A stretch of DNA of 49,975 bases, from the NCBI GenBank assembly GCA_947384955.1, contig CANDJC010000019.1, positions 1-49,975 of the forward strand. Reading direction: 5' to 3'. Both the position numbers and the translations under genes were made by a program. Position 1 is the first letter of the stretch. Each line of letters begins with the position of its first letter. The notes beneath the pieces were generated by a model. The model worked only from the letters and a program-made list of their open reading frames with translations. It did not search any database and was not told the DNA's origin. Source of the DNA: an uncultured Eubacterium sp. (GTDB lineage Bacteria > Bacillota > Clostridia > Lachnospirales > Lachnospiraceae). This document shows, piece after piece, positions 1-35,532 of this stretch.

Positions 1-73
1 CAGAAAACTTAGAACTTCCTGCTTTTTGGAAGCGGAACATCAGAAGGAAAAACTTTCTTTGTCCAGCGTCCCA
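1..73 (-). repeat. Hairpin element E0, partial (cut by window edge)
   Basis: This is the outer arm of a hairpin repeat whose other end lies outside the window. The first ~45 bases closely match the reverse complement of the left arm of element E1 (4831-5110): the inner stem with CAGAAAACTTAGAACT and the following TTTTTGGAAGCGGAACAT are nearly identical. It ends in GCGTCC, like the outer ends of E2 and E4. The orientation is therefore the same as E2. It sits immediately after the 3' end of the ABC permease gene. The function is unknown to me. Confidence 0.75.
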
Positions 74-3936: not shown

Positions 3937-4791
3937 ATGAAAAAAATCCGCTGTATTTTGTTTTGTCTGCTGCCTGTTATTATTACGATTGTGTTACAGA
4001 TACTCACCAGTATTCCTGTCTGCGGGATTACTGTGATTGCTGCTGTTTTAAAAAATTACCACCGCAAAATGCCGCTCAGTGAAGCACTCAATGACCTTTT
4101 ATCCCTCTGGTCTTCCAGTTCTTTTATTATCGGGGTATCTATGATTTATGCCATCGCAGCCCTTGTCCTATTCGGTTTCTGGTACCGGAAAAAAATAGCT
4201 GCGGACCAGGAGCTGGTTCCCGTTAAATATGCATTTAATATCCAGATTGTTTCGTCGCTGTTTCTGCTTGCAGTCGGACTTCAGTATGTCGTTCAGTATC
4301 TGATGAGTTTTATCGGCGCACTCCGCCCGGACTGGATGCAGGCTTATGCGGACTTATCTGATTCCGCTGGATTTGGCTCCATGTCGCCGCTGATGCTTCT
4401 GTATTCCTGCATCATTGCACCTGTTTCAGAAGAACTGATTTTCCGCGGAGTAACTCTTGGTTATGCAAAAAAATCCCTGTCCGCGGCCGCAGCTGTCTGC
4501 CTGCAGGCTGTTTTATTTGGTGTGTTTCATATGAATATTATTCAGGGGATTTATGCCGCCTTTCTGGGACTCTTTTTAGGATATATCTGCGAGGCTGGCG
4601 GAACGATTGCGGTTTCTATGCTGTTTCATGCTTTTTTTAATCTGTGCGGGTCGTTGTTTAATCCGTATATGTATTACCATATGGAACAGCCGTTCTTTTT
4701 TATGCTCTGGCTGACTGTGGGAGTGCTGCTGACGTATGCGGGTATTTTTTTGTTTCAGAGCGGGACGGAGATGAGGGATGAGAGGGACTGA
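3937..4791 (+). CDS. CPBP-family intramembrane metalloprotease
   Basis: The 284-aa polytopic membrane protein carries the CAAX-protease/bacteriocin-processing (CPBP, Abi) signature. Motif 1 is EELIFR with E165, E166 and R170. Motif 2 is FGVFHMN with H198. A third His/Asn helix (LFHAFFN) lies around residue 232. These residues form the metal-binding active site in the family. Members process prenylated or small peptides and are often linked to bacteriocin immunity; the substrate is unknown here. Predicted helices run through most of the protein. The start follows CAGGAGG with a 9-nt gap. It is divergent from the ABC exporter, and both genes lie between inverted copies of the hairpin element, so they may travel together. 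Confidence 0.88.
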   Translation: MKKIRCILFCLLPVIITIVLQILTSIPVCGITVIAAVLKNYHRKMPLSEALNDLLSLWSSSSFIIGVSMIYAIAALVLFGFWYRKKIAADQELVPVKYAFNIQIVSSLFLLAVGLQYVVQYLMSFIGALRPDWMQAYADLSDSAGFGSMSPLMLLYSCIIAPVSEELIFRGVTLGYAKKSLSAAAAVCLQAVLFGVFHMNIIQGIYAAFLGLFLGYICEAGGTIAVSMLFHAFFNLCGSLFNPYMYYHMEQPFFFMLWLTVGVLLTYAGIFLFQSGTEMRDERD

Positions 4792-4800
4792 GGGATGAAC

Positions 4801-4830
4801 TGGGGGGGGTGGGGGATTGGCTGAATGGAC
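4801..4830 (+). other. G-rich tract at the 5' edge of element E1
   Basis: Eight G, one T and five G lie at 4802-4815, 10 bp after the protease stop. The tract ends in GGAC directly before the GCCGG start of E1. It is the counterpart of the C-rich flanks outside E0, E2 and E4, and it could form a quadruplex-like structure on one strand. Confidence 0.5.
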
Positions 4831-5110
4831 GCCGGATGGAGCAATTTTTTCCCTGGTATGTTCCGCTTCCAAAAAGCAGGCAGTTCTAAGTTTTCTGCAT
4901 TCAGGCTGTGGCTGCGGACGGACCGGCGCCTGATGCCCTGGCGTTTCTGGCTGCTGTAAGCAGTGGCATTGGCAGGCGCCTTTTGGGGACTTCAGGGTTT
5001 TATCGGGTGGTAGGACGTGAGTCCCCAAATCCTGGGTATTGAGCAGAAAACTAAGAACTGCCAGCTTTTTTCCAGAGTCACATACCAGGGAAAAAATTGC
5101 TCCATCCGGC
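4831..5110 (+). repeat. Hairpin element E1 (280 bp, perfect 31-bp terminal stem)
   Basis: The outer arms 4831-4861 and 5080-5110 are perfect reverse complements over 31 bp, starting GCCGGATGGAGC. Inside lies a second stem: a left arm around 4870-4898 containing GTTCTAAGTTTTCTGC and a right arm around 5043-5070 containing GCAGAAAACTAAGAAC. The core folds into two further hairpins: GGCGCCTG at 4925-4932 with CAGGCGCC at 4973-4980, and GGGGACT at 4985-4991 with AGTCCCC at 5020-5026. The design resembles a MITE or a structured RNA. No ORF of credible coding character lies inside. It follows the 3' end of the protease gene. Confidence 0.85.
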
Positions 5111-5413
5111 TGATTTTGACTGAATTTACGTTTAGGATGATTTGCAGCATTTTGATAGTTTTGATGCTTTTCATATAATGCTTTTGATGCTATTATACTA
5201 TTGATACTTTTATGGTTTTGAGGTTTTGAGTTTTTGTTTTTTTGTTTTTTTGTTTTTGGAAACAATCGACACTGCTTTAACACTAAATAGCTGTCGCTGG
5301 GAGGTTAATTTTACCCACTGTATACATTTGCAGCTAAATCATTTTTTACTATGCGGCTTTACTAATTTATTTAACATACAGCCAGCACTAAAACGTAAAT
5401 TCATCCACTGTCA
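5111..5413. other. AT-rich spacer between E1 and E2
   Basis: This is a 303-bp non-coding stretch. Its two ends are related as an inverted repeat: GAATTTACGTTTAGG near 5116 matches the reverse complement of the ACTAAAACGTAAATTC near 5385. The middle is AT-rich, with reiterated TTTTGATGCT-like and TTTTTGT units around 5150-5260. I see no gene, tRNA or convincing promoter. Confidence 0.7.
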
Positions 5414-5696
5414 GCCGGAGGGAGGAGATGTTTCCTTTCTGATGTGACTTTTGCGGAAAGCTGGAAGTTCTTAACTTTCTGCCCAGTACCCAGGATTTGG
5501 GGACTCACGTCCTACCGCCCGATAAAACCCTGAAGTCCCCAAAAGGCGCCTGCCAGTGCCACTGCTTACAGCAGCCAGCAGCGCCAGGGCATCAGGCGCC
5601 GGTCCGTCCGTCTGCATAATCCCTGACGCAGAAAGTTTAGAACTTCCAGTTTTCCGCAAACGGAACATCAGAAAGGAAACATCTCCTCCCTCCGGC
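5414..5696 (-). repeat. Hairpin element E2 (283 bp, perfect 32-bp terminal stem)
   Basis: The outer arms 5414-5445 and 5665-5696 are perfect reverse complements over 32 bp. Their sequence (GCCGGAGGGAGG...) differs from that of E1. The core from about 5490 to 5605 is nearly identical to the E1 core in inverted orientation, including the GGCGCC and GGGGACT hairpins. E1 and E2 therefore form a head-to-head pair. The contrast between a conserved core and outer stems that changed while staying perfectly paired is the key observation. Confidence 0.85.
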
Positions 5697-6005
5697 GTCC
5701 GTCATTCACACACCCTTCCCCTGCACAGCCAGCATTTCCCCTCCCCTGCACAGTTCGTAATCCCCCTTGCACAGTCCGCATTCCCCAAATGTCATGAATA
5801 GCCCCCAAACTCCCCCGCAAAACTGTTAAGCATTTCCCAAAATCTTCCGATAAACTACTTAGTACAAGGATTGTAACAGCATGTCACGAAAACCACGGAC
5901 GGTATGTAATTTAGGCATCCAGCTTAAATTGTATGCCGTTTTTTGTGTACATCCGGATACATCCCCTTTCATTCCAGCTGTTTATTATTAAGGAGGTTTG
6001 AGTTT
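5697..6005. other. Intergenic region with C-rich direct repeats
   Basis: The first ~110 bp are C-rich and contain three imperfect copies of a CCCCTGCACAG-type motif near 5717, 5747 and 5772, spaced about 27-30 bp apart. The rest is AT-richer and should hold the promoter of the gene at 6006, but no pair of boxes is convincing. A clear ribosome binding site, AAGGAGG, precedes the start at 6006. Confidence 0.45.
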
Positions 6006-7070
6006 ATGATTATTCAGTCAAGCGCTGTAAAAATGAATTCCCAGAGAAATTACCGCTCCATATCAGCGATGAGCGGAGCCCTTGGCACAAGATTTTTAGG
6101 AAGCCTTTCCCGTTCTGCCGCTTCTTCTGCCCGCAGCACACAGAAAAAAAATAAAGACAGCGGACAAAAGCAGGAGAACCTGACGAATTCAGATGATGAT
6201 TTGATGGCACGTTTTTCCCAGAGCCGCAGCATCCGCGCGGCCGGTCTGGAAAGCAGCCGGAGTCTCAGGTCTTTGCACAAAATCCGCAGACAGTCGATTG
6301 GTTATATGCTGCATCAGATGTTTTGGGGAAGCCGCAATGTGGTCAGGGATATGGACCCTCTGTCTGCGCTGCTTTCCGATTATTCCTCTTTTTCATCTAA
6401 CAGTATGTTTCAGGCATCTGCCTCTCAAAAATACTATGAAGCGGAGCAGACCAGCTTTGCCACGCAGGGAACTGTCGTAACTGCTTCTGGCAGGGAAATT
6501 TCGTTTAACGTAGAAGTGGAGATGTCAAGGGCTTTTTATGAAGAGACTTCTGCCGTCATTGATATGAGCGCGGTGAAGCTGACAGATCCTCTTGTGATTA
6601 ATTTAGACACTGAAACTGCCTCGGTATCTGACCAGAAATTCTATTTTGACCTGGATGCAGACGGGCATCAGGAACAGATTTCCCAGCTCGGTGCCGGAAG
6701 CGGTTTTCTGGCTCTGGATAAAAACGGCGACGGTATCATTAACGATGGCAGCGAGCTGTTTGGCACTGCAAGCGGCAATGGTTTTGCGAACCTGGCGAAA
6801 TATGACCAGGATGGAAATGGCTGGATTGATGAAGCGGATGAAATATTTGATAAGCTTTTAATCTGGCAGAAGGATGAAAATGGCAAAGACATCCTGCGCG
6901 GGCTCGGCGCTGCCGGAGTCGGTGCTATTTACCTTGGAAATATTAATACGCAGTTTTCACTAAATTCTGCATCGGATAATAAAACAAATGCCATGATAAG
7001 ACAGACCGGGACATTCCTTTATGAAAACGGAACAGCCGGGACTATGCAGCAGATTGACCTGGCTCAGTAA
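6006..7070 (+). CDS. EF-hand-like calcium-binding protein, unknown role
   Basis: The start at 6006 was chosen because AAGGAGGTTTGAGTTT precedes it; an upstream in-frame ATG at 5943 has no such site. The 354-aa product has a Ser/Arg/Lys-rich N-terminal half with no signal peptide. A C-terminal domain from about residue 200 carries three Asp-rich loops: DLDADG (215-220), DKNGDG (238-243) followed by INDGSELFG, and DQDGNG (267-272). The middle loop with GSELFG is the type seen in calcium-binding domains of RTX-like and VCBS-like proteins. It likely binds calcium, but without a secretion signal or repeats the role is open. It precedes the ferritin-like gene by 21 bp, so the two probably form an operon. 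Confidence 0.75.
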   Translation: MIIQSSAVKMNSQRNYRSISAMSGALGTRFLGSLSRSAASSARSTQKKNKDSGQKQENLTNSDDDLMARFSQSRSIRAAGLESSRSLRSLHKIRRQSIGYMLHQMFWGSRNVVRDMDPLSALLSDYSSFSSNSMFQASASQKYYEAEQTSFATQGTVVTASGREISFNVEVEMSRAFYEETSAVIDMSAVKLTDPLVINLDTETASVSDQKFYFDLDADGHQEQISQLGAGSGFLALDKNGDGIINDGSELFGTASGNGFANLAKYDQDGNGWIDEADEIFDKLLIWQKDENGKDILRGLGAAGVGAIYLGNINTQFSLNSASDNKTNAMIRQTGTFLYENGTAGTMQQIDLAQ

Positions 7071-34596: not shown

Positions 34597-34835
34597 GCCG
34601 GGAGAGGGGATTTGCCAGGTCTTCCCGGAGCGGCTCCAGAATGTTAAGAATCCCTAAGCATTCTGCATTTACACTGTGGCCCCGGACGGGACGCGGCACT
34701 CAGTTCGCCCTGGCCTGCAGCCAGCAGCTAAAAGTGCCGCTACGGCTTCGCCGCCTGGTTATCTGGCAGAATACTAAGGGATTCTAAACATTCTTCCAAT
34801 GCTCCGGGAAGACCTGGCAAATCCCCTCTCCCGGC
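34597..34835 (+). repeat. Hairpin element E3 (239 bp, perfect 35-bp terminal stem)
   Basis: Arms 34597-34631 and 34801-34835 are perfect reverse complements over 35 bp, starting GCCGGGAGAGGGG. An inner stem pairs GTTAAGAATCCCTAAGCATTC-type sequence near 34643-34673 with its partner near 34767-34795. A core hairpin pairs GCGGCACT (34693-34700) with AGTGCCGC (34733-34740), and a GGCTTCGCC mini-hairpin follows. The core shares CTGTGG, CGGACGG and GCCCTGG with E1. It lies at the 3' end of pyrI. Confidence 0.85.
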
Positions 34836-35291: not shown

Positions 35292-35532
35292 GCCGGATGA
35301 CGGGAAGATGCCCCGGCTTCCCGTGACATTGGAGGAATGTTTAGAATCCCTTAGCATTCTGCCAGATAACCAGGCGGCGAAGCCGAAGCGGCACCTTTAG
35401 CTGCTGGCTGCAGGCCAGGGCGAACCAGGTGCCGCGTCCCGTCCGGGGCCACAGCGCAGATGCAGAATGCTTAGGGATTCTTAACATTCCGGAGCCGGAA
35501 CCGGAAGCCGGGGCATCTTCCCGTCATCCGGC
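35292..35532 (-). repeat. Hairpin element E4 (241 bp, perfect 30-bp terminal stem)
   Basis: Arms 35292-35321 and 35503-35532 are perfect reverse complements over 30 bp, starting GCCGGATGACGGG. The core is an inverted, near-identical relative of E3, with its hairpin stem changed in a compensatory way: GCGGCACCT (35388-35396) pairs with AGGTGCCGC (35427-35435). It lies at the 3' end of malQ, so E3 and E4 separate two convergent genes. Confidence 0.85.

Follow-up and report, generated by a model that had tools for sequence, protein, structure and literature searches.

The sponge RNAs CsrB, CsrC, RsmX, RsmY and RsmZ carry many loops each, against two in TwoAYGGAY elements, and bcr1 of Bacillus cereus is a mobile intergenic repeat with a conserved RNA-like fold and no protein of its own. 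TwoAYGGAY, named in 2010 and unexplained since, is a probable RNA and probably not cis-regulatory according to the available part of its description (Weinberg 2010; PMC2864571), and in 2015 it was proposed to bind CsrA, as given in the available text of PMC4333381. REP sequences and BIMEs, on the other side, are palindromes of intergenic DNA that occur as inverted pairs, in some cases with stems of two types; among them the CGTC-tagged REPs, which have CGTC at the foot and no known transposase, form head-to-head heterodimers, in so far as the available sections of PMC3733652 describe them. At the DNA level, the arms of inverted repeats can be homogenised by template switching in quasipalindrome correction (PMC8604942, available part).

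Here we describe a pair of large inverted hairpins, E1 and E2, from a genome of the Lachnospiraceae. The reading that we favour, with a probability of roughly 0.7, is that the two hairpins are the ends of a protein-less repeat unit that arose from TwoAYGGAY, lost its loops, has its arms copied at the DNA level and is mainly selfish.

Architecture of the hairpin pair

The window, i.e. the whole stretch of 49,975 nucleotides that was analysed, is contig C19 of a source genome of 5.06 Mb in 271 contigs. For a protein encoded nearby, the nearest named records, in a search from which the source genome's own record may be missing, are MAGs of Lachnospiraceae type at 63-73% identity, and seven of the nine best carry the label uncultured Eubacterium sp. 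Its initial annotation reported E1 and E2 as a mutually inverted pair with perfect outer stems and near-identical cores, and re-counting of the pairing upheld this: 4831-4861 pairs with 5080-5110 over 31 bp in E1, and 5414-5445 with 5665-5696 over 32 bp in E2, with zero mismatch in either, while the core at 4915-5083 is 92% identical to the inverse of 5442-5610. The inner hairpin motifs were likewise found at the positions given, GGCGCCTG/CAGGCGCC at 4925/4973 (E1) and 5545/5593 (E2) and GGGGACT/AGTCCCC at 4985/5020 (E1) and 5499/5534 (E2), as were the spacer ends, which are inverted copies (TGATTTTGACTGAATTTACGTTT versus TGACAGTGGATGAATTTACGTTT). The predicted folds reach -162.9 kcal/mol for E1 (z -13.2) and -182.5 kcal/mol for E2 (z -15.25), values equalled by 0/200 shuffles in each case. 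Two further hairpins, E3 and E4, are genuine and belong to a second sub-family. The features are as follows.

1..67, no strand: end of another element, cut by the contig end
4792..4826, plus: G-rich outer flank on the E1 side, not seen in the sister species' interval
4827..4830, plus: outer tag GGAC at the E1 side
4831..5110, minus (the RF01731-type RNA strand; the GCCGGATGG... of the initial annotation reads on plus): E1 hairpin, E1 sub-family, from the fold and a match to model R2 at 4859-5086 (plus)
4831..4861, plus: E1 outer stem P1, 5' arm, 31/31 paired with 5080-5110
4871..4898, plus: E1 inner stem P2, 5' arm, A.A mismatches 4878/5063 and 4888/5053
4925..4980, no strand: E1 inner hairpin P3 (GGCGCCTG/CAGGCGCC), without a GGA loop, situated in the inner domain that carries the GGA-loop hairpins in TwoAYGGAY
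4985..5026, no strand: E1 inner hairpin P4 (GGGGACT/AGTCCCC), without a GGA loop
5043..5070, plus: E1 inner stem P2, 3' arm, pairing with the P2 5' arm
5080..5110, plus: E1 outer stem P1, 3' arm, pairing with 4831-4861
5111..5413, no strand: AT-rich spacer between E1 and E2, about 23 nt at either end being inverted copies
5414..5696, plus (the RF01731-type RNA strand): E2 hairpin, E1 sub-family, inverted relative to E1
5414..5445, plus: E2 outer stem arm, 32/32 paired with 5665-5696
5665..5696, plus: E2 outer stem, other arm, pairing with 5414-5445
5697..5700, minus: outer tag at the second end (GGAC on minus)
5701..5787, minus: second outer flank, E2 side, G-rich on minus, not seen in the sister species' interval
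34597..34835, minus: E3 hairpin, E3 sub-family, stem type GGGAGAGGGGATTTG
35292..35532, plus: E4 hairpin, E3 sub-family, stem type GGATGACGGGAAGATG, partner of E3

A repeat family built of two-ended units

Searches of the source genome with the E1 core and the E4 hairpin gave 205 and 429 first-look candidates, respectively; 40 of each were scored and all matched (in 73 rows for E4, reverse-strand echoes included). In a 449,975-base sample, made up of the window and 20 stretches (17 contig starts and three placed elsewhere, two of these over known copies), a covariance model recovered 33 elements longer than 140 nt, one of them (L083) cut by a contig start, and seven shorter ones at contig ends, these 40 hits being taken from 75 rows after reverse-strand echoes and a weak 56-nt match (L074, E 0.0011) had been dropped. 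The sample is not fully unselected, because contigs tend to break in these repeats and 17 stretches are contig starts; without the window and the three chosen stretches, it contains 23 elements in 340 kb. From either sample proportion, the copy number is estimated at a few hundred per genome. The elements are intergenic, with 0/33 inside a long ORF.

Pairing is the usual arrangement, the sample holding 14 inverted pairs and 12 unpaired hits, seven at contig starts and five elsewhere; for these five, which are among the 33 elements, a partner was not detected within 1.7 kb. An inverted partner, whole or cut, was present at 20 of 24 distinct first-fetched E1-type loci, including L027, which may not be a true pair since a host gene lies between its hairpins and the inner end sequence is missing on one side. 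In three of the four partnerless loci the contig stops no more than about 640 nt away on the side of the spacer; the other, L015, shows no partner in 1.47 kb. Spacers of those 20 pairs are 224-1034 nt long, with one case of 2.3 kb besides. In so far as they were compared, what they have in common is their ends (GTTTTGGCTGAATTTACGTTT and its inverse) and stretches of other repeats up to about 127 nt long, not the spacers as wholes.

Many spacers are filled with degenerate tandem repeats (window 5200-5260, L018, L020, L028, L303), and another repeat, around AAAACTTGTAAACTGG, is common to several of them. At L303, tandem repeats of the element's outer end (CATCCAGCGTCCCC...) stand just outside the second hairpin, which suggests slippage at the tag.

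Over 26 distinct pairs, core identity is 0.915 within pairs versus 0.885 between pairs of the same type, and outer-stem identity is 0.727 within versus 0.767 between. The outer stems are less alike within pairs because the two ends carry different stem types: in 17/17 E3-type pairs exactly one end is GGGAGAGGGG (or GGAAGAGGGG) and the other is of the TGACGGGAAGATG type or a variant of it, which argues that the pair is one two-ended unit. By inspection, the corresponding GGAGGGAGGAG/GGATGGAGAAA contrast is clear in only 5/9 E1-type pairs. The description of the stems as copy-specific thus stands in so far as such variation exists, and needs amending for the E3-type pairs, whose stems fall into two end types. 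Outside the core, GGACGC occurs within 70 nt in at least 89 of 91 source-genome elements. Further out follows a strongly G-rich flank, with a GC skew of 0.55 in its last 25 nt and, within 60 nt, a five-G run in 69% of cases and a five-C run in 0%. None of the 15 longest alignments across the core gave evidence of whole-unit copying: identity stops at most about 106 nt from the core on the inward side and 85 nt on the outward side. Inverted pairs are also found in other genera (L156, L160, L164, L200, L209), so pairing is not special to this genus.

Relationship to TwoAYGGAY

The initial annotation assigned the hairpins to no named family, a view that is not supported, as covariance models applied both ways and Rfam matches identify them as a derived lineage of TwoAYGGAY (RF01731). 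The search of related genomes and Rfam that links E1-E4 to RF01731 elements of other genera proceeded with several models. RF01731 itself gave 24 matches of 92-142 bits, aligned over the full length, in 19/20 loci of other genera, and in the same genus it matched 6/13 loci, those with GGA loops, some copies again aligning along their full length; its cut-off was passed in 6/13 species of the genus. In the source genome, where 105 of 229 candidates were scored, it had at least 19 matches, 17 of them over the 43-bit cut-off and reaching 76 bits. Within the window, cmscan at the gathering cut-off returned no RF01731 match, and the interval 4700-5800, which covers E1 and E2, returned none even at E 10.

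Of our own models, R1 was built from several sub-types and contains L033, itself an RF01731 element; homology rests on R3 for this reason, a model built solely from copies without GGA loops, which gave 41 matches (E 3e-17 to 8e-7) in 36/43 loci of other genera, with one further weak match and none in six. In the reverse direction, R2, built from 22 GGA-type copies and oriented opposite to RF01731, matched E1 at 1.2e-28, E2 at 2.4e-26, E4 at 7e-19 and E3 at 8e-14. The part common to RF01731 and E1-E4, by R3 towards other genera and R2 towards E1-E4, is the inner stem and its junction. A(N)GGA loops were looked for in the inner hairpins of E1-E4 and are absent, and among 91 source-genome copies 79 have no core GGA-loop hairpin, 11 have one and one has two.

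Since E1 and E2 fall below the RF01731 listing and 79/91 copies lack a GGA loop, E1-E4 are, judged by sequence and predicted structure, a derived lineage of RF01731 and not typical members of it, and E1/E2 represent a known family in a derived and amplified form. What is described here in addition is the long outer stem, the arrangement as paired, two-ended units and the amplification; among the papers listed in literature searches, none was recognisable as an account of this repeat. The earlier suggestion of a mobile-like repeated hairpin gains support, together with a structured-RNA ancestry.

In another genome, G157, TwoAYGGAY hairpins occur singly (L147-L152), no partner being detected in 4.2 kb. 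Their palindromes extend into copy-specific sequence (e.g. TTGTATAGGATTAGGG in L152), as if the flank had been duplicated in inverted form or insertion targeted palindromes.

GGA loops and CsrA

On the strand opposite to that of the initial annotation, the inner hairpins of other-genera elements have two GGA loops in 21/24 elements, one in two and none in one; among 49 distinct other-genera elements, 40 have two GGA-loop hairpins, seven one and two none. The opposite-strand control shows any GGA loop in 1/24 and 1/34 elements. The 49- and 34-element counts lean to the GGA type, as they consist wholly or partly of R2 hits, while the 24-element set and a set of 59 loops from the genus and other genera start from R1 hits. 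These 59 loops define an octamer, C (50), A (46), N, GGA, N, G (57), in which both N are free and GGA itself was the search term. C A N GGA N G is the CsrA/RsmE consensus.

The element was found in at least 65 of 397 genomes of the family, a lower bound because six candidates were scored per genome, and CsrA in 210. CsrA is present in 60/65 element-bearing versus 150/332 other genomes (Fisher p 1e-13, the lists having been overlapped by hand), the exceptions being G149, G165, G203, G354 and G393; the genus-level figure of 56/60 presumes that the genera of these exceptions hold no further sampled member with CsrA. The source genome itself has three CsrA matches. This co-occurrence agrees with the CsrA binding proposed for TwoAYGGAY in the available text of PMC4333381, and it may instead reflect motility or shared ancestry.

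A working trans-acting RNA, in which hairpins transcribed outward from the spacer would sequester CsrA or a paralog in the manner of CsrB or RsmZ, could account for the CsrA-type octamer of the GGA-type relatives, for two such hairpins in most other-genera elements and their near-absence on the opposite strand, and for the association with CsrA, whose binding to RF01731 had been proposed. Such a function is nevertheless improbable for the present copies, the large majority of which (79/91) have no GGA-loop hairpin in the core; moreover, outward promoters show no bias toward the hairpins, the trend in the source genome being the opposite one (p 0.016), and the outer stems lack the mismatch preference of an RNA, as set out below.

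CsrA paralogs were considered as proteins encoded by the element and rejected, because they adjoin flagellin genes outside the elements. They belong to a recurrent group in which a small tyrosine recombinase of ~190-215 aa (assigned to Pfam Phage_integrase in L174) accompanies a divergent CsrA paralog of ~90-110 aa, with flagellin as a third member in contigs that extend far enough (L167, L169, L170, L172, L174, L175, L176, L177, L178, L180). The group is found in genomes with and without elements (G028, G013 and G110 gave none). In the source genome the full group occurs once (L174), and CsrA-flagellin at a contig start (L173) has a cut element ~330 nt away; in G078, an element lies ~1.2 kb from the group.

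Complementarity of the outer arms and the core

In the outer stems of the 91 source-genome copies, 2888/2933 aligned positions are Watson-Crick and 54/91 stems are perfect. An RNA under selection tolerates G.U, so an excess of G.T over A.C mismatches would be expected (the reverse if the other strand is read). Over 174 elements, which include the 49 distinct other-genera elements, outer-stem mismatches comprise 140 G.T and 132 A.C (p 0.67), and with no preference between them RNA selection on the outer stem was rejected; an excess of A.C noted by inspection in 30 copies (9 to 1) vanished in this larger set. Near-equality of the two mismatches suggests that the outer arms are kept complementary at the DNA level, one arm being copied from the other.

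The core shows another pattern: 81/91 source-genome copies and 28/34 in the genus have an inner stem with exactly two A.A mismatches, which in E1 are spaced by 10 bases, and other genera have exactly two in 25/49 elements and one in 19/49. The persistence of these mismatches, in spite of the fact that unselective correction would erase them, points to selection on the core. Covariation is extensive there, 31/35 core pairs being compensated, and G.U is in excess on the RF01731 strand (39 versus 22, one-sided p 0.02), which allows an RNA still under some selection. The choice posed by the initial annotation, template copying or selection, is therefore best divided: copying fits the outer stems better, and selection seems to act on the core.

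Pure selection on folded DNA, as a cruciform or a single-stranded hairpin, would dispense with arm copying and treat each compensation as two separate mutations. It would explain why the pairs next to the A.A mismatches and the internal loop vary, although these features themselves are conserved. In alignment A1 (30 copies), where compensated changes affect 32/88 predicted pairs, the outer stem shows two-sided variation and a single one-sided change between standard pairs; if G.T is not tolerated, the intermediate with a single mutation should be met with more often, and we hold this explanation to be unlikely.

Insertion history and candidate mobilising enzymes

The focus pair sits between a gene with an Rce1-like (CPBP) domain and the ORF at 5943-7070. 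In six sister species (G002, G005, G007, G008, G009, G010) both flanking genes are adjacent without the pair, and three of these intervals (G002, G008, G010) have extra sequence of another kind; the G003 stretch ends in an E3-like hairpin arm, which indicates a different element there. The G-rich outer flanks were not seen in these sister intervals. Defined inverted ends and insertion polymorphism are thus both present, the comparison being between species and not strains. R1 matches occur in 11/13 species of the genus, G011 and G012 being the two without, with a copy number that varies between species, and in 8/150 genomes of the family. At L306 1226-1891 (G419), hairpins flank an Rce1-like (CPBP) protease gene, and the focus pair likewise adjoins an Rce1-like gene.

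A transposase-driven MITE, whose ends would be the long inverted repeats, palindromic by chance, and whose enzyme would come from an IS elsewhere, would suit the two distinct end types, the insertion relative to sister species and the differing copy numbers. No transposase was recognised in the spacers examined, whether in ORF lists read by eye or among six ORFs situated between hairpins, for which Pfam gave an Rce1-like protease, a tRNA-editing domain, DUF6783, a sub-threshold DciA match and, in two cases, nothing; no target-site duplication was seen either, the flanks being too diverged between species for one to be read. The structure, moreover, covaries well beyond the ends, and the MITE is on balance a doubtful account. 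Y1 transposases matched at two places in the genome only, an IS200-type gene of the ordinary kind and a decayed copy, and the 2.7 and 3.4 kb around these contain no element; mobilisation by RAYT or IS200 was rejected as the Y1 transposase is not flanked by repeats. The possibility of cargo or autonomous copies was also dropped, the longer spacers examined holding degenerate tandem repeats or unrelated genes.

Strong hairpins in intergenic positions, 0/33 within a long ORF, could also serve as transcription terminators or, as the initial annotation suggested, mRNA 3'-end stabilisers. The outer neighbour genes point away from the hairpin in 16 cases and toward it in 17, which speaks against the stabiliser and likewise led cis-regulation by gene orientation to be rejected, and the elements lie mostly in inverted pairs with long spacers; this function is very improbable.

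Proposed origin of the unit

In the favoured reading of E1 and E2 as the ends of one repeat unit, the unit would comprise a hairpin, an AT-rich spacer and a second hairpin in inverted orientation, bordered on its outer sides by GGACGC tags and G-rich tracts. Its ancestor would be the TwoAYGGAY RNA of many Lachnospiraceae, with two inner hairpins bearing CsrA-type loops, and in this genus the E1-type and E3-type sub-families, which carry other hairpins in place of the loops, would have multiplied. One outer arm was probably copied repeatedly from the other, by foldback template switching or by hairpin-primed synthesis during spread, while selection would preserve the inner stem, including the pair of A.A mismatches (U.U in RNA), and the unit would now be mainly a selfish intergenic repeat. 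Most likely, hairpin-templated DNA synthesis starts from the annealed inner stem, so that inner mismatches survive and outer arms become perfect. It is the distribution of the copies that argues for spread of the unit, and the mismatch statistics that argue for arm copying.

A bolder version, which we put forward as speculation with a rather low likelihood, is that of a two-ended mobile element without a protein of its own that was born from a CsrA-binding RNA. It would have a selected core with two spaced A.A (U.U) mismatches and an outer arm rewritten, at each spread, from the other arm by hairpin-primed synthesis, and the loss of its CsrA loops, as though to evade a host regulator, would have been followed by hyper-amplification.

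Comparison with known systems

Over 397 Lachnospiraceae genomes, the presence of TwoAYGGAY tracks the CsrA gene; the loops agree with the CsrA consensus, and a relative without them occurs in one genus as a paired, highly repeated element. Two questions are thereby made testable, namely whether CsrA sponge RNAs exist in Clostridia and how a structured RNA gene turns into a repeat. Copying of DNA from one arm to the other may, besides, have left a natural record in the outer stems.

Compared with TwoAYGGAY, E1-E4 have the inner stem in common and lack the two AYGGAY loops. The sponge RNAs CsrB, CsrC, RsmX, RsmY and RsmZ resemble the TwoAYGGAY relatives in their GGA hairpin loops, which are absent in E1-E4, and they differ from the elements described here, which are repeated intergenic copies in this genus. 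As far as descriptions can be compared, bcr1 is not an inverted hairpin pair, unlike the E1/E2 units. Quasipalindrome correction is described, in the available part of PMC8604942, for short imperfect repeats, whereas here two inner-stem mismatches survive. By comparison of descriptions, REPs and BIMEs share with the present elements the intergenic inverted palindrome pairs and CGTC at the foot; however, according to the available sections of PMC3733652, REPs are 20-40 bp long with CGTC stems of 8-9 bp, whereas the elements described here extend over ~240-290 nt and have a conserved internal fold.
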